Assembly (NCBI GenBank): GCA_023511795.1 | Contig: JAIMAU010000008.1 | Location: 1-64,000, forward strand | Source: Armatimonadota bacterium | Lineage (GTDB): Bacteria > Armatimonadota > UBA5829 > DTJY01 | Length of the DNA: 64,000 nucleotides | Direction: 5' to 3' | Shown here: in pieces, positions 42,336-57,227 of the stretch | Position numbering within the stretch: the stretch's first letter is position 1 | Layout: each line of letters starts with the position of its first letter | Made by a program: the position numbers and the translations under genes | The notes under the pieces: generated by a model | Database searches by the model: none | Told to the model about the DNA's origin: nothing | Seen by the model: the letters and a program-made list of their open reading frames with translations, nothing else

Positions 42336-42567
42336 GTTTCCTCGAAGATTGCTAAACTTTTCCTTGCAATGCTGGTACTTTTGCGTTTCGGAAGCATGCT
42401 TGCTATGCAATTTGGCTATCCCCTAAATAAACGTTGACTAGCAGATATTCCTACACTATACTTTAAAATACCAACCCACCCGTTCGGCGACTCCTCTTCT
42501 CTTGAAATAACTTTGCCGAAGCGGTGTTCCTTTTCGCATCTATGTCTTCAGGAGGATAGCCCTGCAT

Positions 42568-44682
42568 ATGGAGAAAACTCTTGGCATGCGGCGGGAATAT
42601 CTGGTCGCTTTGGTTCTAGTGCTTATAACCCTTGTGCTTTTTAGCCGGGTATTGGGTTATCAGTTTGTGTATGACGATAAGCAGTATATTCAGGACAATC
42701 ATCAGGTACGAGATGGTCTTTCTTTTAAGGGTATCGGATGGGCTTTTACCTCGATGTATGCTTTCAACTGGCATCCTTTGACTTGGCTTTCGCACATGCT
42801 TGACTGCGCACTATTTGGTCAGAAAGCTGGTTTGCACCATTTAATCAATCTGTTTTTTCATGCAGCCAATGTTTTTCTACTTTTCTTTGTGCTAATGCAG
42901 CTGACGGCATCAATGTGGCGTAGTGCGTTTGTTGCAGCATTGTTCGCCGTACACCCGCTTCATGTGGAATCAGTAGCTTGGGTAGCGGAACGAAAGGACA
43001 TGCTCAGCACATTTTTTATGCTGCTTACCATTTGGGCATACAATCAATATGTTAATGCGCCGGATAGAAAAAAATATGCCTCTATAGTAGGTTTCTTTTT
43101 GTTAGGGTTGCTTTCAAAGCCGATGTTGGTGACTTTACCATTCGTTTTGCTTCTTCTAGACTATTGGCCTCTTGGAAGAATTGACTTCACTTATTATTCG
43201 TTGCTGAAAGACCCTTTGGGTAGAAGCAAAAGCAAAAGGTTGTTGTGGGAGAAGATTCCCTTGTTTGGTCTGTCCTTATTTTCTTGCATTATCACCTATA
43301 TTGCTCAACAACATGGTGGTGCTGTTGGTTCTTTGGAACAATTTCCGTTTTCTGCTCGAATTGGCAATGCAATGTTAGCATACGTTGGTTACATTGCTAA
43401 GATGATTATTCCATATAAGTTGAGTATATTCTATCCGCATCCTGGGCTAAATCTCCAAATTTGGAAGGTAGTAGCGGCGACTTTGTTCCTTGTCATAATT
43501 ACTGCTTTTGTTATCAAAGCTGCCCCAAACCGTCGCTATCTTGTGGTGGGTTGGTTTTGGTATCTTGGCACGCTAGTTCCTGTTCTCGGTTTAGTCCAGG
43601 TCGGCATGCAGGCGATGGCTGATAGATATACGTATATTACGCTGATAGGTCTCTTCATAATAATCGCTTGGGGAGTGCCGGATTTGGTTGAGTGCCTGGG
43701 AAAGAGATATGGGATGAAAGGACGAGGACGTGGAGATAATGAATGCCAAGCAGGAGTCATTGCTTCTGGCGAGGTATCAACCATTACCCATTCTCAAGTT
43801 TTGCCATTTTGTGCTTGCGTCATTATTTTATCCCTTATGGTGTGTACATGGCGGCAATTATCCTACTGGAAAGATAATTTCACACTATTTGGGCGTGCAG
43901 TTGAGACTACTGGCGGCAATTACTTAATGGAGAATAACTTGGGCTTCTTCCTTATGGAGGCAGGAAGGCATGATGAAGCGATAAAGCACTTCCGAGCTGC
44001 TTTGAGGGATAATCCACGATATGCTGAGGCCCACGTAAATATTGGCAACATTCTATCCGAACAGGGCAAAACAGAGGAGGCTCTGCGCGAATATCAAGCG
44101 GCACTTAAGGTAAGACCTGGGTTTGCACCAGCGCTGAATAATATTGCGGGAATACTCGAGCAAAAAGGTCAAATAATTGAGGCGATGCACAAATATGAGG
44201 AAGCAGTAAAAGCTGATCCGAGTTCAGCGACATCCCATCTAAATTTTGGGCGTTTGTTAATTCTTGTTGGAAGACCGGATGATGCAATTCGAGAGCTAAC
44301 CGAAGCCGTCCGCCTTGATCCCAAGCTTGAGCTCGCCCATTACAACCTAGCGCGTTTGCTGGTTGAGAGGGGACAATTGCAAGATGCACTTCCACATCTT
44401 GAAGAAGTTGTGCGTCTTAACCCTACTAATGCGGAGGCACATCTCGACTTGGGTGCTGTATTGGTGGATATGCAGAGGATTGATGAGGGGATTGCCCATT
44501 ATATTGAGGTAATTAAGCTCAAGCCGAATTTTCCACCAGTTCATAATAATCTAGCAGTTGCATACTTCTTTAAAGGTCAATATGCAGCCGCCTGGGAAGA
44601 AGTTAAGTTATGTCGGAAGTATGGCATGACGCCACATCCGGAGTTTATTAAGGCACTCTCTTCAAAAATGCCCGAGCCTTAA
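42568..44682 (+). CDS. TMTC-like GT-C membrane protein with TPRs, paralogue 1 of 5
   Basis: A 704-residue protein. About ten transmembrane helices fill residues 10-430. In the first periplasmic loop an Asp pair, D36-D37 in FVYDDKQY, is followed by FNWHPLTWLSHMLDC (67-80), and HPLHVESVAWVAERKD lies at 129-144. These are the hallmarks of the eukaryotic TMTC O-mannosyltransferases (GT105-like, GT-C), where the Asp pair is at the lipid-sugar site. Residues 450-690 hold about seven TPRs, then the array-wide tail (KALSSKMPEP). AGGAGG lies about 12 bases upstream. It begins the five-gene run. Transfer of sugar to exported proteins is inference. Confidence 0.8.
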   Translation: MEKTLGMRREYLVALVLVLITLVLFSRVLGYQFVYDDKQYIQDNHQVRDGLSFKGIGWAFTSMYAFNWHPLTWLSHMLDCALFGQKAGLHHLINLFFHAANVFLLFFVLMQLTASMWRSAFVAALFAVHPLHVESVAWVAERKDMLSTFFMLLTIWAYNQYVNAPDRKKYASIVGFFLLGLLSKPMLVTLPFVLLLLDYWPLGRIDFTYYSLLKDPLGRSKSKRLLWEKIPLFGLSLFSCIITYIAQQHGGAVGSLEQFPFSARIGNAMLAYVGYIAKMIIPYKLSIFYPHPGLNLQIWKVVAATLFLVIITAFVIKAAPNRRYLVVGWFWYLGTLVPVLGLVQVGMQAMADRYTYITLIGLFIIIAWGVPDLVECLGKRYGMKGRGRGDNECQAGVIASGEVSTITHSQVLPFCACVIILSLMVCTWRQLSYWKDNFTLFGRAVETTGGNYLMENNLGFFLMEAGRHDEAIKHFRAALRDNPRYAEAHVNIGNILSEQGKTEEALREYQAALKVRPGFAPALNNIAGILEQKGQIIEAMHKYEEAVKADPSSATSHLNFGRLLILVGRPDDAIRELTEAVRLDPKLELAHYNLARLLVERGQLQDALPHLEEVVRLNPTNAEAHLDLGAVLVDMQRIDEGIAHYIEVIKLKPNFPPVHNNLAVAYFFKGQYAAAWEEVKLCRKYGMTPHPEFIKALSSKMPEP

Positions 44683-44698
44683 TTGATGAATTGCTGCC

Positions 44699-46777
44699 AT
44701 GGAAAAACCTTTTGACAAACGCTTACCCTATTTAATTGGAACTGCGCTAGTTCTAATTACCTTTGCAGTTTTTTGGCAAGTACTTACAAGCGACTTTCTC
44801 AATTATGATGACGATTACTTTGTGACCGACAACCACCACGTCCAATTGGGGTTAAAGTGGCAAAGCATTAAGTGGGCTCTTACAACTTTATATCAATGCT
44901 TTTGGCATCCACTGGTGTGGCTTTCTTACCTGATAGATAGACAAATCTTTGGGCCTGGGCCGTTCGGTTTCCATTTAGTGAACTTGTTGTTGCATCTCGC
45001 CAACGTTTTTCTGCTTTTTATAGTAATGGATAGATTTATGCGCTCGATTTGGAAGAGTGCCTTCGTGGCGGCGTTATTTGGAATACATCCGCTACATGTC
45101 GAGTCTGTTGCCTGGATTTCGGAAAGAAAAGATGTGCTCAGCACCCTTTTCTGGATTCTTACCATGTGGGCTTACCTTTTCTATGTCGAGAAACCAGGCG
45201 TGAAGCGATACCTATTGGTGCTGGTGCTTTTCTTTTTCGGATTGACAGCAAAATCAATGCTAATGACGCTTCCAATTGTCTTGCTTCTTTTCGATTATTG
45301 GCCGCTACATCGCACAAACCTTGCCTGGCATTCTTTGCAAAGCTTTTTCGAAAGGAAAAATAAGAATCTCGTACTTGAGAAACTACCTCTTTTGGTGCTC
45401 TCGATAGCATTTGGAGTCATAAGCATTATTGCTCAAAGAAAAGGTGGGGCCATGAGCACCTTGATCGATGTGCCACTTTGGAGCCGCATTGGAAATGCTT
45501 TCTTGTCTTATGCGAAGTATATTCTGAAGATGTTTTGGCCCAGGGGATTAGCAGCCTTTTATCCGCACCCAGGTCATGAGCTTCCAATTTGGCAAGCTAT
45601 TGCATCGGTGCTGGTGCTAGCGGGTATCACGGTGATGGCTTTTCGCATTGCCGCAAAGCGCCCGTATTTTGTAGTTGGATGGCTTTGGTATGTAATTACT
45701 TTAATACCAGTAATAGGGATTATTCAAGTTGGTTCATTTGGAATGGCGGACCGTTTTACCTATGTGCCGCTGATTGGCTTGTTCATAATAGTTGCATGGG
45801 GATTGCCAGACCTAATTGCGCTTGGGCGAGTAAATGAAAAGGAGGCGGAAAACCTAGGCGCTGAATCTTATTTATCATCTTTCCCCTCTGTTCTTCCGCT
45901 GGTTTCGTGCATTTCTATCACTGCTTTAAGTATATGCACTTGGTTCCAAGTGGGATATTGGAAAAACTCTAAGACTCTCTTTACGCATACTCTTGCTGTA
46001 ACGAGAAATAACTTCGCCGGTCATCTCAATCTGGGTATCGCACTCGAAGTTAGCGGCAACGTCAACGATGCCATCAGGCATTATTACAGAGCACTGGAGA
46101 TAAACCCACTGAGCGATAAGGTGTACAACAATCTCGGAGTCGCACTGGAGAAGCAAGGGCGTTTCCAGGAAGCGATAGAGTGCTTGCAAAAAGCGGTAGA
46201 ACTCAAGCCAAACAGCCCAGATGCCCATGGGAACTTGGCGATGATGCTTGCAGATGCCAAAAGGTTTGATGAGGCTGTCTATCATTGCGAAGAACTGCTT
46301 CGCCTAGCTCCGTATGATCCGGTTGCACATTGGCTAAGAGGTAGATTGCACGCGGCAATGGGCAATCCTGCCGCCGCAGAAGCGGAGTTTCGCCAATCTC
46401 TGAGACTTCAGCCTAATTTTGCTGACGGACATTTCCACTTGGGATTGGTTCTTAAGTCAATGGGACGCGATGCCGAAGCGGAGGCGGAATATCGTGAGAC
46501 AATTCGCTTAAACCCCAATCATTCGGCAGCTCACAATAATTTGGGGAATATGCTTTTCAGCCGCCATGACTACGAAGGAGCAATAGACGAATACCGCCAG
46601 GCAGTCGAGGCTAATCCACAGAACCAACAGGCGCAGAATAATCTTGCTGCGGCTTTCTTATACTCAGGCAATTACCTTGAAGCTTGGCGTCAAGTACAGC
46701 AATGCAAGGAACGCGGAATCCCTGTTCATCCTGCAATTATCCGTGATCTCTCTGCAAAAATGGGCGAACCGAAATAG
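44699..46777 (+). CDS. TMTC-like GT-C membrane protein with TPRs, paralogue 2 of 5
   Basis: A 692-residue paralogue of the preceding gene, 16 bases after its stop. The loop motif is LNYDDDYFVTDN (Asp at 37-39), followed by CFWHPLVWLSYLIDR and HPLHVESVAWISERKD. Notable difference: the WHPL block is WHPLVW rather than WHPLTW. TPRs run from about residue 436 to 670 and the tail ends RDLSAKMGEPK. The middle loop before the TPRs contains a distinct ELGAESYLSS-like region. Same predicted topology and function as the others. Confidence 0.78.
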   Translation: MEKPFDKRLPYLIGTALVLITFAVFWQVLTSDFLNYDDDYFVTDNHHVQLGLKWQSIKWALTTLYQCFWHPLVWLSYLIDRQIFGPGPFGFHLVNLLLHLANVFLLFIVMDRFMRSIWKSAFVAALFGIHPLHVESVAWISERKDVLSTLFWILTMWAYLFYVEKPGVKRYLLVLVLFFFGLTAKSMLMTLPIVLLLFDYWPLHRTNLAWHSLQSFFERKNKNLVLEKLPLLVLSIAFGVISIIAQRKGGAMSTLIDVPLWSRIGNAFLSYAKYILKMFWPRGLAAFYPHPGHELPIWQAIASVLVLAGITVMAFRIAAKRPYFVVGWLWYVITLIPVIGIIQVGSFGMADRFTYVPLIGLFIIVAWGLPDLIALGRVNEKEAENLGAESYLSSFPSVLPLVSCISITALSICTWFQVGYWKNSKTLFTHTLAVTRNNFAGHLNLGIALEVSGNVNDAIRHYYRALEINPLSDKVYNNLGVALEKQGRFQEAIECLQKAVELKPNSPDAHGNLAMMLADAKRFDEAVYHCEELLRLAPYDPVAHWLRGRLHAAMGNPAAAEAEFRQSLRLQPNFADGHFHLGLVLKSMGRDAEAEAEYRETIRLNPNHSAAHNNLGNMLFSRHDYEGAIDEYRQAVEANPQNQQAQNNLAAAFLYSGNYLEAWRQVQQCKERGIPVHPAIIRDLSAKMGEPK

Positions 46778-46914
46778 AGATGCTTTTAATCAGCCGTCCT
46801 CTCCAAATTCCAATCCTTGTTGCACTTAGGCTCAAAGGGCAGTATACTTGGCTTTGGAATAATTTCTGCATTCAGTAACGGCGCTACTTAAGTTCACAGC
46901 GATTTTCTTTGCGA

Positions 46915-49011
46915 ATGAAAGAAAATTTCTTGGTTAGCCAATCTAAGCTTTGGATTTGCTTGTTTCTTGCCACCGCCATAATTATTGTGTTCGGTCGTGC
47001 GGTTGGTCATAATTTTACCAACTATGATGACAACCGTTATGTTACCGAGAATGGCATGGTTTTGGCAGGATTGACTTGGCGAGGGGTCGCCTGGGCATTT
47101 GCGAGTACTCATGCGGCTAACTGGCATCCTCTAACTTGGATTTCTCATATGTTTGACGTCCAATTGTTTGGACTGAAAGCGGGTGGGCACCATTTCACTA
47201 GCATCGTTCTCCATACTATTGCTACCATTCTCTTGTTTCTTGCCTTTACGCGAATGACGGGTTTTATTTGGAGAAGCGCTTTTGTGGCGTTGCTTTTTGG
47301 TATCCATCCTCTTCATGTAGAATCAGTAGTGTGGGTTGCTGAACGCAAGGATGTTCTTGCCGCTGTTTTTGGTATTTTGGCGTTGCTAGCATATATTCGA
47401 TATGTCCAACGCCCTAAAATTGTCACCTACCTCTGGGTTGTAGTATTTTTTGCTATGGGACTTCTTGCCAAGCCTATGCTTGTTACTTTGCCCTTTGTAT
47501 TTCTTCTTCTCGATTTTTGGCCTCTCGGTCGCACTCGCCTTTGTCATTGTTCGTTAGTTGCTTCAACCACGAGTAAAATTAAAACCCTAGTTTCAGAGAA
47601 GTTGCCGTTATTTGTTTTCTCCGCTCTAGTATGTACGGTAACATACATCGTACAGCAAAAAGGCGGGGCTGTGACCTCAACGGAGCAATTTCCACTTGGC
47701 ATAAGGATTGAGAATACATTAGTTGCATATGTCGCCTATATCGGTAAAATGATTTGGCCGCAGAAGCTGGCTGTCTTCTATCCGCATCCAGTCGCCATGT
47801 TGCCAATATGGCAGGTCATAGGGGCTGGTATATTTCTAGCAGCTGTGACTTCAATTGTAATCGTTGCATCACGGAGCAAGCCATATTTGGCAACTGGGTG
47901 GTTTTGGTATCTTGGTACGCTTGTTCCCGTAATAGGCATTGTGCAGGTTGGGGCACAAGCGATGGCTGACCGATACACATATATTCCGCTAATAGGGCTT
48001 TTTGTGATAATTGCATGGGGAATTCCTGACCTTATTAAATGCACAGTGGTTAATAGAGAAGCTGACGAAAAGAAGAAAAGGGGTTTGACATTAATTTCAT
48101 TTCGGCTTTCCTCGATTTTGCCATTTGCGGCAGGCTTAGTTGTTTTTTCGTTTACAACATGCGCTTATATTCAGGTTGGTTATTGGAGGGACAGCGTTTC
48201 TCTATTCACCCATGCCCTGGCCAGCACGTCAAACAATGCTTTAGCGCATAATAATCTTGGCTTGGCACTGGCTGATAAAGGCGATATTAGTACGGCAATT
48301 CGACATTATAGACGAGCACTCGAGATTAAGCCAGATTTTCCTTTGGCGCACAATAATATTGGCCTTGCGCTTGTAGACATGAAGCGCTTTGATGAAGCAG
48401 TATCACATTTTAAGGAAGCACTAAAAAGTGAACCTCGTTCGGCAGTATTTAGGAACAATTATGGGACGGCTTTGGTAGGGCAAGGCAACCCAAGAGAAGC
48501 AATTGAGCAGTTCAAAGAGGCTTTGAGAATTAATCCAGACTATGCAGCTGCTCATACGAATATGGGTCTAGCTTTTGCAAAACTGGGCGAATTTGATAGG
48601 GCAATTTTGGAATATGAGAAGTCTTTAAAACTCAATCCGAGAGATGTACGGACTATCATAAATCTCGGTGTTGCCTTTGCAATGCTAGGCAAATTTGATA
48701 AGGCGATTGAAGTGTATCAAAGGGCGCTGGCTTTGAACCCTGAGTCTGCAGATATTCACAATAACCTTGGGCTTGCTTATGCTTCCCAGGGGAAAATTGA
48801 TGAAGCATTAGAACATTATGAAGAGGCAATACGCATACAGCCCAGTCTTGGCCAGGCGCACTATAATATTGCAGTTGTTCTTGCAATGAAGGGGCGATAT
48901 GCGGAAGCATGGCGAGAAGTTCATCTAAGCACACGGTATGGTTATGCTGTAAATCCTGCATTTGTGCAGGCGCTATCACAGCGAATGGCTAATCCTTGGC
49001 CAGCCGAATGA
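46915..49011 (+). CDS. TMTC-like GT-C membrane protein with TPRs, paralogue 3 of 5
   Basis: A 698-residue paralogue starting at ATG 46915 (TTG at 46909 also in frame; no clear ribosome site for either). Loop motif FTNYDDNRYVTEN with D38-D39, then ANWHPLTWISHMFD and HPLHVESVVWVAERKD. About seven TPRs from residue 440 on, with clear NNLGLALADKG-type repeats. The tail is QALSQRMANPWPAE. The 131-base gap before it is the largest in the array and may contain its own promoter, though I see no consensus one. Confidence 0.78.
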   Translation: MKENFLVSQSKLWICLFLATAIIIVFGRAVGHNFTNYDDNRYVTENGMVLAGLTWRGVAWAFASTHAANWHPLTWISHMFDVQLFGLKAGGHHFTSIVLHTIATILLFLAFTRMTGFIWRSAFVALLFGIHPLHVESVVWVAERKDVLAAVFGILALLAYIRYVQRPKIVTYLWVVVFFAMGLLAKPMLVTLPFVFLLLDFWPLGRTRLCHCSLVASTTSKIKTLVSEKLPLFVFSALVCTVTYIVQQKGGAVTSTEQFPLGIRIENTLVAYVAYIGKMIWPQKLAVFYPHPVAMLPIWQVIGAGIFLAAVTSIVIVASRSKPYLATGWFWYLGTLVPVIGIVQVGAQAMADRYTYIPLIGLFVIIAWGIPDLIKCTVVNREADEKKKRGLTLISFRLSSILPFAAGLVVFSFTTCAYIQVGYWRDSVSLFTHALASTSNNALAHNNLGLALADKGDISTAIRHYRRALEIKPDFPLAHNNIGLALVDMKRFDEAVSHFKEALKSEPRSAVFRNNYGTALVGQGNPREAIEQFKEALRINPDYAAAHTNMGLAFAKLGEFDRAILEYEKSLKLNPRDVRTIINLGVAFAMLGKFDKAIEVYQRALALNPESADIHNNLGLAYASQGKIDEALEHYEEAIRIQPSLGQAHYNIAVVLAMKGRYAEAWREVHLSTRYGYAVNPAFVQALSQRMANPWPAE

Positions 49012-49051
49012 GGAATAAATATGTTTTACACAGGCAAGGGGATTGTCCGCT

Positions 49052-51064
49052 ATGCGTAAGGCTAAGAAGACAAAGCCAAGGTACTTTCCAACATGGCTAT
49101 TGGTAACTTTGGTTACGATTGCTGTCTTTTCTCCAGTTGTCACCTACAAGTTTGTTACCTGGGATGACAACGTTAACATATACGATAATCCAAATTTTAA
49201 ACCAGTAACATTTCAAAATATACTTGGCTTCTGGCAGAAGCCATTCGAGCATTTGTATATCCCCCTGACGTACACCATATGGGCACTTCAGGCAGTCGTT
49301 GCCTATGTTCCCGGAAGGAGGGGGGCGGAAGCATTCAATCCCCATGTATTCCATGCGTGTAATCTCTTTCTGCATGTTCTTAGCGTTCTAGTTGTTTTTA
49401 TTTTGCTGAAAATGCTTTTGGCTACGGCAAGTTCTAACATCAGCCGCTCTCCTTTTTCAAGAAAGGGTGTAAAAATTCAAAAAGAAATGCAGCCCCGGAG
49501 AGCCGAAGGTTTAAATTTTCTGCATGCAGAGTTAGCGGCGGTACTTGGAGCGCTTTTCTTTGCCCTTCACCCAATGCAAGTCGAATCCGTTGCGTGGGTC
49601 ACCGGAATGAAAGATGTGCTTTGTGGACTTCTTTCATTGGCAGCGGTGTGGCAATATCTCCTTTACGTAAAGATTGCAGGCGAGCCTGGAATTGGAAGAA
49701 AGGCATTTGTTCATTATGCACTAGCGGTGTTGTTTTATATCCTTGCTCTTCTCACCAAGCCAAGCGCTGTAATTGTGCCGTTCGTGGCGTTGGTGTTCGC
49801 TTGGGGGGAGATGGGACGCTCGTTGAGGCAGACCACTTGTGATTTGCTGCCCTTAGTTGTGATTGCTGTTCCTTGGGCAATAATGACCAGCATCATACAA
49901 GGGAGCGACCATACTGCATATATCACTCCAATTTGGAAGCGGCCATTTATTGTGGGAGATACGCTCACGTTTTATCTTTACAAGCTTATTGTTCCCATTT
50001 CTTTAGGCGTAGATTATGGGCGAAGGCCCGAGGTTGTATTGGAACATTGGTGGGCTTATGTTGCATGGGTTGTTCCTGTTGGCTTGGGTGTTCTAATATG
50101 GCGTTTGAAAGAACGAAAATTGTGGTCGGCGGCGGCAGTGTTTGCCATCGGTATTCTCCCTGTGTCTGGGGTCATTCCTTTCGCCTTCCAAACCTATTCA
50201 ACAGTTGCCGACCGATATGTGTATTTCTCGATGCTTGGCCCTGCACTTGCGCTTGCATGGTTTGCAAGCATTCGGCCAATGAAAAATGTAAAGGCTGGTT
50301 TGGTTACCCTGCTTGTGGTTCTCGGCACGCTTACAATTTTTCAAAGTCGGTACTGGGCTAATACCTCACTGCTTTTTCAGCATGCGGTTGAGGTTAACCC
50401 ACGAAGTTCGGCAGCCTACTATAATCTCGGTCTTGAATATGCCGAACAAGATGAGCTTGAAAAAGCTATTCAGCTATTTAGAAAAGCTTTAGAAATCAAG
50501 CCCGATTACGACAAAGCACACAACAATCTTGGTGTTTCATTGGCTGGCCAGGGCAAGCTAGATGAAGCTGCCGCCCATCTTACAGAAGCTATCAAAATCA
50601 CGCCCAACTATGCAAAGGCACACTACAATCTTGGTGTTGTGCTGGAGGCACAAGGTAAGGAAGTTGAGGCCGTAGAACATTTTAAGAAGGCTGTTAGGAT
50701 ACTTCCTGATTATCTGGAGGCATATAAAGCTTTAGGAAAGACCCTTGTGCGTCTAGGGGAGATGGAAGAAGCCGTGATGTATTTCTCGAAGGCGGTTCGC
50801 ATAAATCCGAATGATCCAGACGTCCAGATGGGTTTGGGAATGTCTCTTGGAAATATCGGTAGGTTGAACGAGGCTATTGAACATTTGCGCAAGGCTTCGG
50901 AGCTTAAACCCGGCGACGCTGAGATTCATAACAACCTGGCGGTTGCGCTTTATATTAAGGGCGACTACCAGGGCGCATGGGACCAAATAACTTTGAGCAG
51001 GAACTGCGGTGGAAATCCGAATCCTCAATTCATTGCTGAGGTAGCTCGTAAACTAAAAAGATAA
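49052..51064 (+). CDS. Divergent TMTC-like membrane protein with TPRs, paralogue 4 of 5
   Basis: A 670-residue paralogue that differs most. The loop motif is FVTWDDNVNIYDN, keeping the Asp pair, but the usual WHPLTW block is replaced by FEHLYIPLTYTIWALQ. A longer second loop includes a basic, Ser-rich stretch (SRSPFSRKGVKIQKEMQPRR, about residues 131-150). The later block is HPMQVESVAWVTGMKDVL. Six or seven TPRs follow from about residue 450. The tail is shortened to IAEVARKLKR. AAGGGGA lies nine bases before the ATG. It may have a different donor or acceptor. Confidence 0.75.
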   Translation: MRKAKKTKPRYFPTWLLVTLVTIAVFSPVVTYKFVTWDDNVNIYDNPNFKPVTFQNILGFWQKPFEHLYIPLTYTIWALQAVVAYVPGRRGAEAFNPHVFHACNLFLHVLSVLVVFILLKMLLATASSNISRSPFSRKGVKIQKEMQPRRAEGLNFLHAELAAVLGALFFALHPMQVESVAWVTGMKDVLCGLLSLAAVWQYLLYVKIAGEPGIGRKAFVHYALAVLFYILALLTKPSAVIVPFVALVFAWGEMGRSLRQTTCDLLPLVVIAVPWAIMTSIIQGSDHTAYITPIWKRPFIVGDTLTFYLYKLIVPISLGVDYGRRPEVVLEHWWAYVAWVVPVGLGVLIWRLKERKLWSAAAVFAIGILPVSGVIPFAFQTYSTVADRYVYFSMLGPALALAWFASIRPMKNVKAGLVTLLVVLGTLTIFQSRYWANTSLLFQHAVEVNPRSSAAYYNLGLEYAEQDELEKAIQLFRKALEIKPDYDKAHNNLGVSLAGQGKLDEAAAHLTEAIKITPNYAKAHYNLGVVLEAQGKEVEAVEHFKKAVRILPDYLEAYKALGKTLVRLGEMEEAVMYFSKAVRINPNDPDVQMGLGMSLGNIGRLNEAIEHLRKASELKPGDAEIHNNLAVALYIKGDYQGAWDQITLSRNCGGNPNPQFIAEVARKLKR

Positions 51065-51081
51065 GCGCTTTCTCATCCATC

Positions 51082-53160
51082 ATGGTTCGCGGTGCTGTAG
51101 GTAATCGAGAAAAGCAAAGACTGGTTTATATTGTTGGCGTTATCCTGTTGACGGTAACCATCACTGTCTTTTTGCCTGTCCTTCGCTGTGGGTTCCTAAA
51201 CTACGATGATGAGATATATATAACGGATAACCCCAATGTACAGGCTGGTCTTACATTTAAGGGAATAAAGTGGGCATTCACTTCAATACGAGCAGGCAAT
51301 TGGCACCCTCTGACCTGGATATCGCATATGCTCGACTGCCAAGTTTATGGGTTGAATCCAGCGGGACATCACTTTACGAACCTCGTAATCCACAGCGCTA
51401 ATGTATTGCTTTTATTCTTGCTTTTATTTAAAATAACAGGCTTTGTATGGAGGAGTGCTTTTGTAGCCGCCTTGTTCGCGATGCATCCTCTCCATGTTGA
51501 ATCTGTGGCTTGGATTGCAGAGCGAAAGGATGTACTCAGCACACTTTTTGGGATACTTACGATGTGGGCATATGTTCAATATGTCAAGTCACCGCGAATT
51601 ACAACTTATATTTTTGTAGTAATCTTTTTTGTCTTAGGTCTTATGTCCAAGCCAATGCTCGTGACTCTTCCCTTCTTGTTATTGCTTTTTGATTATTGGC
51701 CTCTTGGCAGGTTTACTTTTGATGGTAGTTCATTTCGAGTGGCTACCTCTGGTAAGTTCAAAAAATTATTGGTGGAAAAATTACCCTTATTCGGGCTATC
51801 CCTATTGTCGTGTGCGATAACCTATTTTGCCCAAAGTGCAGGAGGAGCCGTCGCTTCATTCGAACGCATGACGCTGGGGGTTCGGGCTGCAAATGCTTTG
51901 GTAGCATATACATGCTACATGCTCAAGATGCTTTATCCGGTAAAGCTGGCAGTGCTATACCCTCATCCTGGGAGCACCTTGCCGATATGGAATTGGCTTG
52001 GCTCGGCATTGCTCTTGGTTGCCTTTACCCTGTTGGTAGTCAGAGGTTCAAGAAACAAACCATATTTAGCAGTAGGCTGGCTTTGGTATATAGGCACGAT
52101 GGTTCCGGTAATTGGCCTCGTTCAAATTGGCATCCAAGCCATGGCAGATAGGTATACGTATGTTCCACTAATCGGGCTCTTCATAATAATTGCGTGGGGT
52201 ACTCCCGATTTGATTCAATGTTTGCTAAAGGCTCGTTCCTCAAAAGAAAAAGCTTCCATTTACTCTCACTCACTATTAATAGTTCCTGCGGTTGTTATTC
52301 TTGTTGTTCTTACTTGGGGTGCTCGAGTTCAAATTGGATATTGGAAGGACAGCATTACTTTATTTCGACGAGCGCTTGCAGTAACGAAAGGCAATTACCT
52401 AGCACACCAAAACCTAGGTGTGGCATTGTTCCACCAAGGCAAGCTCGATGCCGCTGCCAATGAGTTCCGTGCCGCGCTGAAGTTAAAGCCATCTTATGCG
52501 CCCGCACACAATGGCCTTGGTGCAGTCCTTATGTGCCAAGGTAGGTATAACAAGGCAGTTGAGCACTTCAGTACTGCTATTAGATTGGACCCTCGCCTCG
52601 AGGATGCGAGGAATAACATGGCTTTCATCATGGAGAAGTGGGGCAGAAATGACGAGGCAATTGCTAACTATGAGGCAGTTTTACGGATAAATCCTGACGA
52701 TGCTGATGCTCATAACAATCTCGGCTTGGTATTAGCGAAATTGGGGCATTTTGACAAAGCAGCAGCCCATTTCTCCAACGCACTAAAACTTAAACCCAAC
52801 GATGCAGAAATTCATTGCAATCTTGGCTCAGCCTTCGTTAAGCTTGGGCGGTTTGATGAAGCAGTTAGGCATCTCAGTGTTGCTGTAAAGATTAACCCGC
52901 AATTAATTGAGGCGCACTATAACTTGGGGAATGCCATGGTATCGCTGGGGGAACTTGATAAGGCTATCGAAGAATACAGAAATGTATTGCGAATAAGGCC
53001 AAACCATATCCCGGCAAGAAATAACATAGCGGCAGTGTTGTATCTTCAGGGAAAATATTCCGAGGCATGGAAAGAAGTTCAGAAATGTCAAAGTTATGGT
53101 GGCACTCCAAATTTTGAATTAATCCGTTTGCTGTCAAGTAAGACACCTCGCCCTCGTTAG
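51082..53160 (+). CDS. TMTC-like GT-C membrane protein with TPRs, paralogue 5 of 5
   Basis: A 692-residue paralogue 17 bases after the previous stop. Loop motif LNYDDEIYITDN (D42-D43), then GNWHPLTWISHMLDC and HPLHVESVAWIAERKD. Closest in block sequence to paralogues 1 and 3. About seven TPRs from residue 435, with tail RLLSSKTPRPR. It is the last of the array; 105 bases later the sigma-54-type promoter of the secreted peptide gene begins its transcript. Confidence 0.78.
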   Translation: MVRGAVGNREKQRLVYIVGVILLTVTITVFLPVLRCGFLNYDDEIYITDNPNVQAGLTFKGIKWAFTSIRAGNWHPLTWISHMLDCQVYGLNPAGHHFTNLVIHSANVLLLFLLLFKITGFVWRSAFVAALFAMHPLHVESVAWIAERKDVLSTLFGILTMWAYVQYVKSPRITTYIFVVIFFVLGLMSKPMLVTLPFLLLLFDYWPLGRFTFDGSSFRVATSGKFKKLLVEKLPLFGLSLLSCAITYFAQSAGGAVASFERMTLGVRAANALVAYTCYMLKMLYPVKLAVLYPHPGSTLPIWNWLGSALLLVAFTLLVVRGSRNKPYLAVGWLWYIGTMVPVIGLVQIGIQAMADRYTYVPLIGLFIIIAWGTPDLIQCLLKARSSKEKASIYSHSLLIVPAVVILVVLTWGARVQIGYWKDSITLFRRALAVTKGNYLAHQNLGVALFHQGKLDAAANEFRAALKLKPSYAPAHNGLGAVLMCQGRYNKAVEHFSTAIRLDPRLEDARNNMAFIMEKWGRNDEAIANYEAVLRINPDDADAHNNLGLVLAKLGHFDKAAAHFSNALKLKPNDAEIHCNLGSAFVKLGRFDEAVRHLSVAVKINPQLIEAHYNLGNAMVSLGELDKAIEEYRNVLRIRPNHIPARNNIAAVLYLQGKYSEAWKEVQKCQSYGGTPNFELIRLLSSKTPRPR

Positions 53161-53476: not shown

Positions 53477-53509
53477 AAGCCCCGATTATTACCGGGGCTT
53501 CTTCTTTTT
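53477..53509 (+). terminator. Second intrinsic terminator
   Basis: AAGCCCCG (53477-53484) pairs with CGGGGCTT (53493-53500), then CTTCTTTTT. The 77 bases between the two terminators hold no supported gene. Confidence 0.75.
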
Positions 53510-53628: not shown

Positions 53629-55152
53629 ATGCCATTGCGTACAAACGGCGTCATTTGGCTGCGAATGCCCTCTTTCCTTTTAATCTTTTCCATAATCCTC
53701 GCCGTCTTGATTTCACTTTTGTTGCCAAAATATTTTGGATTGGCGGCAAGTTCAACTTCTGACATTACTCAGCAGAATTCAATCCTCCCGATTCTTGAAA
53801 AGTCATTTAGAGAAATTGCCCAACGCGTGGAATCAGGCGTGGTTAGCATAACTGCGGTGCGCCCTCCAGATTTGGGTGGGAACCTTCGCGAGAATTCAGA
53901 ATCGCTTGACAAGTACTCCCAGCGTTTCTTGCATCCTGAGTATTCTTCTAACACTAGGGATAAGTTCTCAGGCAATTTTCCTGTTCAATCTGAAACTGCA
54001 AACGGTTCTGGCACCATAATTCGACGAGATGGACGCAACTTCTATATCCTTACAAATTATCACGTTGTTGCAAATTCGTATGCCGTTTCTGTAAGGCTTG
54101 CTGATGATACTGATTTGAAAGTCATAGTTGTTGGTGTAGACCCAGCAACAGATTTGGCGGTTGTGCGGGTATCTTCGCCCAGATTGAGCGATGAGAATGT
54201 TTTACCGCTAGGTGATTCAGATAAGGTAAAGGTTGGCTCCTGGGTTCTGGCTGTCGGCAGTCCGTTCGGTTTCGAGCATACGCTTACTTTTGGCATAATA
54301 AGCGCTCTTCAGCGCCAACTTGAAGACAAGGATACTCAGTATCTCAATCTAATACAGACCGATGCGGCCATCAACAAAGGCAATAGTGGCGGCCCACTTC
54401 TTGATATGGAGGGCAGAGTAATTGGTATAAATACCGCAATTGCATCCCCGACGGGCGGTTTTATTGGTTTGGGGTTTGCAATTCCAATCAACGATGCGAA
54501 GGAAATACTGGATGAGCTTATCACCAATGGCCGAGTTGTGCGGGGCTGGCTTGGTATTGGTATACAGCAACTCACCCCAGTGCTTGCGGAATATTACAAT
54601 GTTAAAAGTGGAGTCCTTGTGGCTTATGTGGATGAGAAAGGTCCTGCTTCTTTTGCTGGCCTTAAGAGTGAGGATATTATTATCTCCTATGGTGGAGTTC
54701 CAATCAATAATGTAGCAGACCTCAAGCGTTTGGTAGCTCATACTGAGCCTGGGAACCGGGTAACCCTTGCAATAGTGAGGGATGGGAAGGAAATAAATAT
54801 ATCAGTCCGAGTGAGGGAGTCGCCGAACACGCCAAAGGCACGGCCAACCGCACCAGAAACCCCTGAGAAGTTGACTCCTGGGTTTCAAACTAGGGCGATG
54901 ACTCCTGCGATGGCAAAACGAATTGGTTTGGACGTTGTGATGGGAGTGATTGTTACGCAGGTAGAGCCGGGGTCTGCGGCGCAGGCAGCAGGCCTTGAGG
55001 TTGGCGACGTAATACTAGCGCTTAATGGCAAGTCTGTTGGAGGATTCCGCCAGTTTGCCGAGATGTGGGCGAATATTCAAGTTGGGGATATAGTCGTTAT
55101 GCGCGTTTTGCGTGATGGGTTGCCCCGGATAATCGGCTTCCGTTGGGAGTAA
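53629..55152 (+). CDS. HtrA/DegP-like serine protease with two PDZ domains
   Basis: A 507-residue envelope protease. An N-terminal anchor (about residues 14-33) is followed by a trypsin-like domain with catalytic H145 (TNYHVVAN), D175 (DPATDLAVV) and S253 (KGNSGGPLLD), then PDZ1 (about 290-380) and PDZ2 (about 400-505), the second separated by a Pro-rich linker. It degrades misfolded periplasmic proteins or triggers stress signalling. The ribosome site AGGAGGGAG lies about 10 bases before the ATG. It converges with the secreted subtilisin gene, stops 11 bases apart. Confidence 0.95.
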   Translation: MPLRTNGVIWLRMPSFLLIFSIILAVLISLLLPKYFGLAASSTSDITQQNSILPILEKSFREIAQRVESGVVSITAVRPPDLGGNLRENSESLDKYSQRFLHPEYSSNTRDKFSGNFPVQSETANGSGTIIRRDGRNFYILTNYHVVANSYAVSVRLADDTDLKVIVVGVDPATDLAVVRVSSPRLSDENVLPLGDSDKVKVGSWVLAVGSPFGFEHTLTFGIISALQRQLEDKDTQYLNLIQTDAAINKGNSGGPLLDMEGRVIGINTAIASPTGGFIGLGFAIPINDAKEILDELITNGRVVRGWLGIGIQQLTPVLAEYYNVKSGVLVAYVDEKGPASFAGLKSEDIIISYGGVPINNVADLKRLVAHTEPGNRVTLAIVRDGKEINISVRVRESPNTPKARPTAPETPEKLTPGFQTRAMTPAMAKRIGLDVVMGVIVTQVEPGSAAQAAGLEVGDVILALNGKSVGGFRQFAEMWANIQVGDIVVMRVLRDGLPRIIGFRWE

Positions 55153-55163
55153 CAATCAGAAGC

Positions 55164-57050
55164 TTAATTCAGCTTATTTATATCAGCTGGTTGTCTGGCA
55201 CGAATTACGGGGATTCTTATTTCTGTATATGCAGGAATTTCAATGGTGCTGATGCCGGTCACGCTTACAAAATCGTTTTTCTTAACGGAAGGCGTCCCAG
55301 CTGTGTAAACCTTAAGTCCTGTAAGGCCTGAACCATCATTTAGATTGGATCCATCGTCTACATATATGAAATTTCGACCAACACTTGTAACTTTGCCCCA
55401 TGTTTTTACCAACAACCCTGTGTTCGGCAGCCCAATTCCGCCTGTTATGCCTCGATATCCCAACTCCTGCCCTCCAACATCTTTATTTGAAATACCTAGT
55501 GGAGCTACTGTTATTCCATTGCCTACTATTGTGACGCGTGGATTGATAATCGCTAATTCGCCGTTTGGGAAATCCTCAGGCTTTGCTGTGTAAAGCTCGC
55601 CAGCAACTTCCACAAGGTCGCCTATTGACGTTGGTGTGGTTACCGATTGGCCATAATAGACCATAATTCCTGCTGACCGATCAGGTTCCTCGATATAGAA
55701 TCTATCCCCAAACTGTACCGTTCCTGCCGGTACAGGCTTTGCAGATAGTTTGACAAACTCGCCAATTTCGGCGTTCCAAAGCTCTCCGATGGTTAAATAA
55801 GTTTCAAACGCCTCACTGAGTGCCCGATATGCGTTAATTCGTCCCCAGCCTGTATACCTATCCCAACCTGCTGTGCTGATATCGTCGCAGGTTTGCTCAA
55901 TTTGGTCGCGCACTTGTTGGTTTGTCCAGTCGGGGTGCGCTGACCATATGAGCGCAGCTAGGCCAGAAACAAATGGTGTTGAGGCTGAAGTTCCACTCAG
56001 TATCTCGAAGCCATCGAATAACCATGACCAATACCACCAGGGTACACTGCTAATTATGAAGCTCCCCGGCGCCATGACATCGAGCGAATCTCCATAGTTG
56101 CTTCCGCCTTCGCCCCAGTCGGCAGCTGTGCAACGCATATCATATTCATTGGTTGCACCCACTGAGATTGTTGCTGGATAGTATGAGGGATAATGCGGGT
56201 CAGTTCGGTCATCAAGGCCGTCGTTGCCGCTTGCAGCGGTAAGTACACATCCAGCGGCCCATGCTTCATTCACTGCAGCTTCCAAAGCTGGCACATGCAA
56301 ATATGTGCCAATGCTCGTATTGATAACTTTGGCGCCGTGCTCAACAGCCCAGATTATGCCTTCGGCTGCGTCTGCTTCTTCTCCATAACCGTCGGCGTTC
56401 AACACCTTAATTGGCATAAGAAGGGCATTCCAATTAACTCCAGCTATTCCCGTGTAGTCGTCTCCCCACGCGGCGGCAATTCCTGATACAAAAGTACCGT
56501 GCATGTGGTCGTCTTCTGTATTTGATGAACCATCAATCGCATTGTAGCCAGCGACAATCTTACCTGCTAAGTCAGGGTGGCTGGAGTCTATGCCTGTGTC
56601 TATTATTGCAATGATTATGCTATCTGAGCCAGTGTTTATATCCCATGCCTCAGGCGCATGTATATCGTATCGTCCATAGCTGTTATAAAGACCCCATTGC
56701 AGGAAGAAAAGCTCGTCGTTTGGAAACAAATCGGCGTATATTATATGGTTGGGGCTAGCGAAATTTATATGAGGGTTGCGTGAAAACTCGGCTTGCGCTT
56801 CTTCGATTGTTTTCCCTTTTGGCAGACGGAGGCGGTATACATTAATCCGCGGGATAACTTCTTTGATGGAAGCACCGTGTTCTTTAATTATCTTATCTGC
56901 TGGCGCACCTTTTCGAAATTGCACAAGTATTTCGCCAGGGACGTATTTCCCGTGTCTTGGAAGCGAATGCTTCCATGGTAGTGCAAAGCAAAACGAAGGC
57001 AGAATCAAGAAATAAATGGCTAATATTGAAGCGCATCTAATGCTTTTCAT
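55164..57050 (-). CDS. Secreted subtilisin-like serine protease (S8) with C-terminal OB-like domain
   Basis: A 628-residue exported protease from the ATG at 57050 (a TTG 21 bases earlier is possible). After the signal peptide comes a fervidolysin-type prodomain (VPGEILVQFRKGAP to about residue 105). The catalytic triad is D151 (IIDTGIDSSHPDL), H184 (DHMHGTFVSG) and S355 (GTSASTPFVSG). From about residue 425 the C terminus is beta-rich with alternating blocks such as GDLVEVAGELYT and GKVTSVGRNFIYVDDGS, resembling an OB-fold cell-surface module. Probably extracellular. Confidence 0.93.
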   Translation of the reverse strand: MKSIRCASILAIYFLILPSFCFALPWKHSLPRHGKYVPGEILVQFRKGAPADKIIKEHGASIKEVIPRINVYRLRLPKGKTIEEAQAEFSRNPHINFASPNHIIYADLFPNDELFFLQWGLYNSYGRYDIHAPEAWDINTGSDSIIIAIIDTGIDSSHPDLAGKIVAGYNAIDGSSNTEDDHMHGTFVSGIAAAWGDDYTGIAGVNWNALLMPIKVLNADGYGEEADAAEGIIWAVEHGAKVINTSIGTYLHVPALEAAVNEAWAAGCVLTAASGNDGLDDRTDPHYPSYYPATISVGATNEYDMRCTAADWGEGGSNYGDSLDVMAPGSFIISSVPWWYWSWLFDGFEILSGTSASTPFVSGLAALIWSAHPDWTNQQVRDQIEQTCDDISTAGWDRYTGWGRINAYRALSEAFETYLTIGELWNAEIGEFVKLSAKPVPAGTVQFGDRFYIEEPDRSAGIMVYYGQSVTTPTSIGDLVEVAGELYTAKPEDFPNGELAIINPRVTIVGNGITVAPLGISNKDVGGQELGYRGITGGIGLPNTGLLVKTWGKVTSVGRNFIYVDDGSNLNDGSGLTGLKVYTAGTPSVKKNDFVSVTGISTIEIPAYTEIRIPVIRARQPADINKLN

Positions 57051-57227
57051 TTGTATCGCACTACTTTCCAAGCGATTTTTTCTAATTCGCTTGCATGTCG
57101 GTGTACGAGGGGTTGTTGGTGGTTACTAGTTTTCATTTTTGAAGACTTTACTTTGCATTTCTACTCTATCACCGACAGCTCAAATTGTCAACTAACGGCT
57201 CACAAACCAGCAATTTTACTAGCTTGC

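Follow-up and report, generated by a model that had tools for sequence, protein, structure and literature searches.

What would a bacterium do with five adjacent genes that encode membrane proteins of one architecture, and how far does the set extend beyond the place where it was noticed? The question is raised by a tandem array at positions 42568 to 53160 of a 64,000-nucleotide stretch (the window) of contig JAIMAU010000008.1 from an Armatimonadota bacterium, whose products the original prediction likened to the eukaryotic TMTC proteins, with a GT-C glycosyltransferase domain in the membrane and tetratricopeptide repeats (TPRs) at the C terminus. Four of the five genes belong to a set of 24 close copies dispersed over the genome, nearly all of which are retained in a sister species, and the family is linked to a single gene for a putative polyprenyl-phosphate-hexose synthase of family GT2. 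We consider it probable, with moderate confidence, that the proteins are periplasmic GT-C glycosyltransferases dependent on polyprenyl-phosphate hexose, sharing one donor and relying on their TPRs to choose acceptors, most likely Ser/Thr residues of exported proteins.

The array consists of five intact, co-directional open reading frames (ORFs) of 673 to 704 amino acids (aa), with intergenic gaps of 16, 131, 31, and 17 bp. As had been claimed, the architecture is common to all five, the domain scan placing an N-terminal polytopic membrane domain before C-terminal TPRs in each. The genes, and the parts of the first that are referred to below, are as follows.

42568..44682, + strand: g1, TMTC-like GT-C and TPR protein, 704 aa (ORF, domain scan, and AlphaFold2 model with 11 transmembrane helices followed by a TPR superhelix)
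42568..43875, + strand: g1 residues 1-436, GT-C membrane domain (AlphaFold2 model, structure comparison)
42673..42678, + strand: g1 Asp36-Asp37, DD pair in the first periplasmic loop, predicted to be catalytic; TMTC motif M1 (Asp36 invariant in 24 paralogs)
42952..42999, + strand: g1 HPLHVESVAWVAERKD block of loop 2, which includes TMTC motif M3, RxD (motif comparison)
43876..44619, + strand: g1 residues 437-684 approximately, TPR superhelix, predicted periplasmic (domain scan, AlphaFold2 model, topology)
44699..46777, + strand: g2, GT-C and TPR architecture, 692 aa (PMT_2 over the Pfam cut-off)
46909..49011, + strand: g3, GT-C and TPR architecture, 700 aa, TTG start as listed (PMT_2 slightly below the cut-off)
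49043..51064, + strand: g4, divergent subfamily, 673 aa, with YIPLTY and HPMQVESVAWVTGMKD (ortholog at the same place in the sister species)
51082..53160, + strand: g5, GT-C and TPR architecture, 692 aa (PMT_2 slightly below the cut-off)

The motifs quoted in the original prediction are not all shared by the five proteins. The Asp pair is present in g1 to g5, and the WHPLTW/WHPLVW and HPLHVESVAW-xERKD blocks are found in g1, g2, g3, and g5, but g4 diverges, lacking the Arg of motif M3 and forming a separate deep branch in the tree. The close copies of the family, here called A-type, number 24 in this genome; divergent copies, g4 included, were counted apart. Asp36 is invariant in the 24 paralogs, and the second acidic residue and the DRxxY, RKD, and K-PM-VT motifs are retained in nearly all of them. 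Conservation of the blocks in 24 paralogs and over several phyla puts the pattern far beyond chance.

Profile and structural comparisons agree that the membrane domain is of the GT-C type, an assignment that we regard as well supported. The Pfam family PMT_2 (PF13231) matched 20 of the 24 paralogs at E values up to 1 (best, 2.3e-10); within the array, hmmscan placed g2 over the cut-off and g3 and g5 just under it and left g1 and g4 unmatched. An AlphaFold2 model of full-length g1, built from 19 input sequences, had a predicted local distance difference test score (pLDDT) of 87.8. The transmembrane (TM) domain (residues 1-436) was also folded alone, because TPR matches dominated the fold search with the whole protein, and gave a pLDDT of 85.8 and a predicted TM-score (pTM) of 0.88. 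All 50 chains listed in the structure comparison of this model were GT-C enzymes or the GT-C-like protein PIG-U (Z, 10.4 to 19.7). In sequence searches of the PDB, the TM-domain profile had no matches, and the matches listed for the full-length protein were of the TPR type only.

The structural relatives have different functions. The highest Z over the whole TM domain, 19.7 (331 residues, 5.0 Å), was to yeast STT3, yet STT3, AglB, and PglB oligosaccharyltransferases use mostly lipid-linked oligosaccharides and carry other C-terminal domains, whereas the GT2 neighbor of the bacterial family resembles a polyprenyl-monophosphate sugar synthase. Similarity to the PMT/POMT protein O-mannosyltransferases (GT39) is nearly as high (Z of 19.5 for a chain of the Pmt1-Pmt2 complex, 6p25, and 19.0 for Pmt4) and agrees with the Pfam relation, but the bacterial copies have C-terminal TPRs and no MIR domain in Pfam scans of the TM domain; the C-terminal part scans as TPR, and the full-length scan lists the best 25 families. 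ArnT, the lipid A aminoarabinose transferase, is likewise a bacterial GT-C enzyme using an undecaprenyl-phosphate sugar and was the first Foldseek match, with PglB also among the top ones (in the structure comparison, ArnT had a Z of 16.8), but it acts on lipid A and its soluble domain is unlike a TPR. Mycobacterial arabinosyl- and mannosyltransferases were also among the structural matches.

The layout most resembles that of TMTC1-4 (GT105), the animal O-mannosyltransferases of cadherins (PMC7801869, PMC11292533). The AlphaFold2 models and loop charges indicate 11 helices, cytoplasmic loops rich in Lys and Arg, and TPRs that share a side of the membrane with the DD loop; from the number of helices and the charges of the loops, we predict this side to be the periplasmic one. 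The published topology of TMTC likewise places TPRs and active-site loop on one, luminal, side (PMC6801728). Of the seven TMTC motifs (PMC7801869), M1 (DD, loop 1), M3 (RxD, loop 2), and M7 ((E/D)RxxY, before TM10) are present in nearly all 24 copies, so that the TMTC-like layout first recognized in the array holds. Motif M4, KE(T/Q)xxT, is not kept, Lys and Thr being retained but Glu replaced by Pro or Ser, and A-type copies have YPHP where M5 has DW. The TMTC_DUF1736 profile (PF08409) had no match in the genome, but neither did it match control genomes, and the point is therefore carried by its absence from all 24 copies in hmmscan. Placement inside TMTC/GT105 is not supported, because the DUF1736 profile, the M4 Glu, and the M5 DW are missing.

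How many such genes the bacterium maintains was examined in an assembly of 3.09 Mb (35 contigs, 97.6% complete; here G000, its sister species being G001). The 24 close copies lie at nine places, on contigs C2, C3, C6, C7, C8, C11, C20, C24, and C33, and about nine further copies, including g4, are divergent. The count is suggested to be a minimum, since TPR fragments occur at two contig ends (C3:1-963 and C21:33600-34265). What was first proposed as a five-fold expansion in one locus is in fact one place in a 24-copy radiation at the level of the genus. The number of PMT_2 places was 41 and 40 in the two genus members, compared to 2 to 18 in 29 relatives, while GT2 genes numbered 16 and 17, compared to 9 to 26 in relatives, which is no expansion; only the transferases, and not the supply of donor, have multiplied. 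In-frame stops break one divergent copy (G000 C5:3874-5420, L035) into two frames, which may reflect a pseudogene or a fault in the assembly; the corresponding gene of G001, probably C16:66757-68568, has an open frame.

The copies are not products of a recent event. A tree of 96 rows united the 47 close copies from both members of the genus in one clade (ultrafast bootstrap, 98; SH-aLRT, 95), which was recovered in 96% of bootstrap trees, the bootstrap being not fully settled. The array is older than the split from G001. Stems are long and tips short, and 23 of the 24 close copies pair one to one with a G001 copy, as does the divergent g4. Recent tandem duplication in the window was rejected, since each gene of the array pairs with an ortholog in G001, where the five also follow one another in the same order (contig C19 ends inside gene 5, the rest of which starts contig C1). 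Over the 24 ortholog pairs (23 close copies and g4), TM domains are 90 to 96% identical and TPR parts 91 to 99%, and ratios of nonsynonymous to synonymous substitution rates (dN/dS) of 0.11 to 0.34 and 0.03 to 0.30, respectively, indicate purifying selection in 24 of 24. Paralogs, in contrast, are 46 to 61% identical in the TM domain; their TPR parts, which hold 3 to 9 repeats, have a median identity of 38%, compared to 52% for the TM domain. One-to-one orthology under low dN/dS, set against such divergence between paralogs, means that the copies are old, separate, and constrained. For one copy, C11:27267, in which Asp-Gly replaces Asp-Asp, no ortholog was found in G001.

A source of donor is indicated by a GT2 gene that is present as a single copy (C20:17702-18490), stops about 8 bp short of a family gene, and encodes a protein of 263 aa with no predicted TM helices. 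Its best PDB sequence match is the dolichol-phosphate mannose (DPM) synthase of Pyrococcus furiosus (5mlz; E, 1.4e-9), a likeness that does not establish the sugar. A close form (67% identity or more) occurs once per genome in 12 genomes of the phylum, every one of them with A-type copies as well. The close form is no more than about 1 kb from an A-type gene in nine (G000, G001, G027, G024, G019, G012, G006, G008, and G026) and on a contig other than those of the A-type genes in three. Within the class, it was present in 12 of 17 genomes with the family and in 0 of 11 without strong A-type copies (Fisher P = 0.0003; the genomes are not independent). In a Syntrophobacterales genome (L052), it likewise lies 0.4 kb from a family gene. 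That this single-copy, DPM-synthase-like gene neighbors a member of the family in 9 of the 12 genomes possessing it is new here, and we conclude that a predicted polyprenyl-phosphate-hexose synthase is linked to the TMTC-like enzymes.

The family is not confined to Armatimonadota. Copies of the A type were found at an E value of 1e-30 in 31 of 291 genomes of the phylum, relatives in the same class outside the genus have 0 to 13 A-type matches, and tandem arrays of three or four copies occur in other genomes of the class. Relatives were also found in Syntrophobacterales, Verrucomicrobiota, Omnitrophota, Planctomycetota, and Acidobacteriota. An expansion unique to this genus was rejected because profile matches number 36 in a Verrucomicrobiales genome (L048, G292) and 23 in a Terriglobales genome (L057, G301), some being split or divergent, which suggests independent expansions in other phyla.

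The genes, the fold, the conserved motifs, the near-complete conservation of copies between species, the link to GT2, and the lack of GT2 expansion are direct results of computation, and we infer from them the following mechanism. The array proteins would be integral inner-membrane glycosyltransferases, four from the 24-member genus-specific set and g4 a divergent relative. On the cytoplasmic face of the membrane, the soluble GT2 would load polyprenyl phosphate with a hexose that is probably mannose, and the lipid-linked sugar would be flipped across the membrane. Each enzyme would bind it from the periplasmic side, with Asp36/Asp37 acting as the catalytic pair and Lys184, Arg142/Asp144, and Arg353 surrounding the lipid-phosphate sugar, roles carried over by analogy from PMC7801869. 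One sugar would be moved to an acceptor held by the periplasmic TPR superhelix, and the copies would have a common donor and different acceptors. Protein acceptors are favored because TPRs bind proteins, because the TPRs are the parts most diverged between paralogs yet are conserved between orthologs, and because acceptor choice guided by TPRs has been proposed for TMTC1-4 (PMC11292533). Retention of all close copies but one, one for one, in the sister species suggests many separate targets of sugar attachment.

Several observations weigh against this mechanism. The M4 Glu and M5 DW of the TMTC enzymes are missing; a search of the genome for cadherin domains, on which TMTC1-4 act, found none, the control search having matched in one archaeon; and no exported-protein or prepilin gene recurs beside the clusters, nor is an acceptor encoded near the array. 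Adjacency of GT2 within the class partly reflects common ancestry. Further, the family clusters contain ArnT-like GT-Cs without TPRs and are interspersed with a second GT-C family with C-terminal TPRs and strong PMT_2 matches (C6:124915-127008; C7:111617-113875 and 118337-120424; C11:29007-35237, three genes; C21:31568-33544), TPRs having been scanned in the C6, C7:111617, and C21 members and the others judged by PMT_2 match and length. Both features also fit the main alternative, an assembly line for an envelope glycan, in which each GT-C would add one sugar from polyprenyl-phosphate donors to a lipid-linked or cell wall polysaccharide, like mycobacterial PimE, Aft, and Emb, and the TPRs would be scaffolds holding the enzymes together. 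The alternation of TMTC-like genes with ArnT-like GT-Cs, a DUF2142/PMT_2 protein, and GT2 on C20 and elsewhere, together with the mycobacterial enzymes among the structural matches, speaks for this alternative. We nevertheless judge it unlikely: if two dozen enzymes built a varied glycan, several donors should be required, whereas GT2 is not expanded; the part diverging most between paralogs is a protein-binding repeat; and no other glycan genes lie beside the g1-g5 array.

GT-C enzymes are known to glycosylate pilins, and the genome encodes about 14 prepilin-like proteins, so that each copy might serve one type IV pilin or type II pseudopilin in a role like that of TfpW. This is improbable, since prepilins are fewer than enzymes and none adjoins an A-type cluster, the sole proximity being on C23, where about 5 kb separates prepilin genes from a divergent copy; pilins as main acceptors were rejected for want of adjacency. 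The GT-C domain could also be no enzyme but a lipid-binding membrane anchor for a TPR scaffold, as noncatalytic GT-C folds exist (PIG-U, PMC7801869) and C11:27267 has Asp-Gly and no ortholog found in G001. Catalytic and donor-binding motifs in nearly all 24 copies, purifying selection, and a donor synthase as conserved neighbor make this very improbable. Glycosylation of exported proteins with several acceptors, as first proposed, is inferred to be the most likely function, although no acceptor gene lies nearby and no cadherin domain was found in the genome.

We tentatively extend this reading, as a possibility that falls somewhat short of probable, to a one-donor, many-acceptors form of bacterial protein O-glycosylation, in which more than 20 parallel TMTC-like transferases would each be reserved by its TPR domain for a separate exported protein or site, would draw on one lipid-linked hexose from the linked DPM-synthase-like enzyme, and would have expanded independently in Armatimonadota, Verrucomicrobiota, and Acidobacteriota. 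Animals have four TMTC enzymes for one target class, compared to about two dozen copies kept in a 3 Mb bacterial genome. If proteins are glycosylated, this would be an unusually large bacterial set of site- or target-specific protein glycosyltransferases and a simple system for studying acceptor selection by TPRs, a question not yet settled for human TMTCs (PMC11292533), and it would bear on the origin of TMTC. Searches of open-access literature yielded no account of an expansion of this kind in bacteria, which does not show that none exists.

The array is likely a single transcription unit, given the promoter-like match 5′ of g1 and the hairpin 3′ of g5, both of which are consensus matches only:

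42434..42462, + strand: promoter-like match (10/12), the best of the region, 5′ of g1 (the number of such sites is not above chance)
53477..53500, + strand: terminator-like hairpin, the strongest on the + strand, 3′ of g5

Other genes were noted in passing. Contig C20 (L041:2494-5676) encodes a single chain of 1060 aa that contains a helix-hairpin-helix motif together with FtsW/RodA and penicillin-binding transpeptidase domains, and three adjacent prepilin-like genes at G000 C23:22116-24730 encode the N terminus GFTLIELLVVIAIIxILAAILFPVF. Directly 3′ of the array in the window are a gene for a DegQ/HtrA-like serine protease with PDZ-like repeats (53629-55152, + strand) and one for a secreted subtilisin-like protease (55164-57071, − strand), both judged by eye from the sequence.

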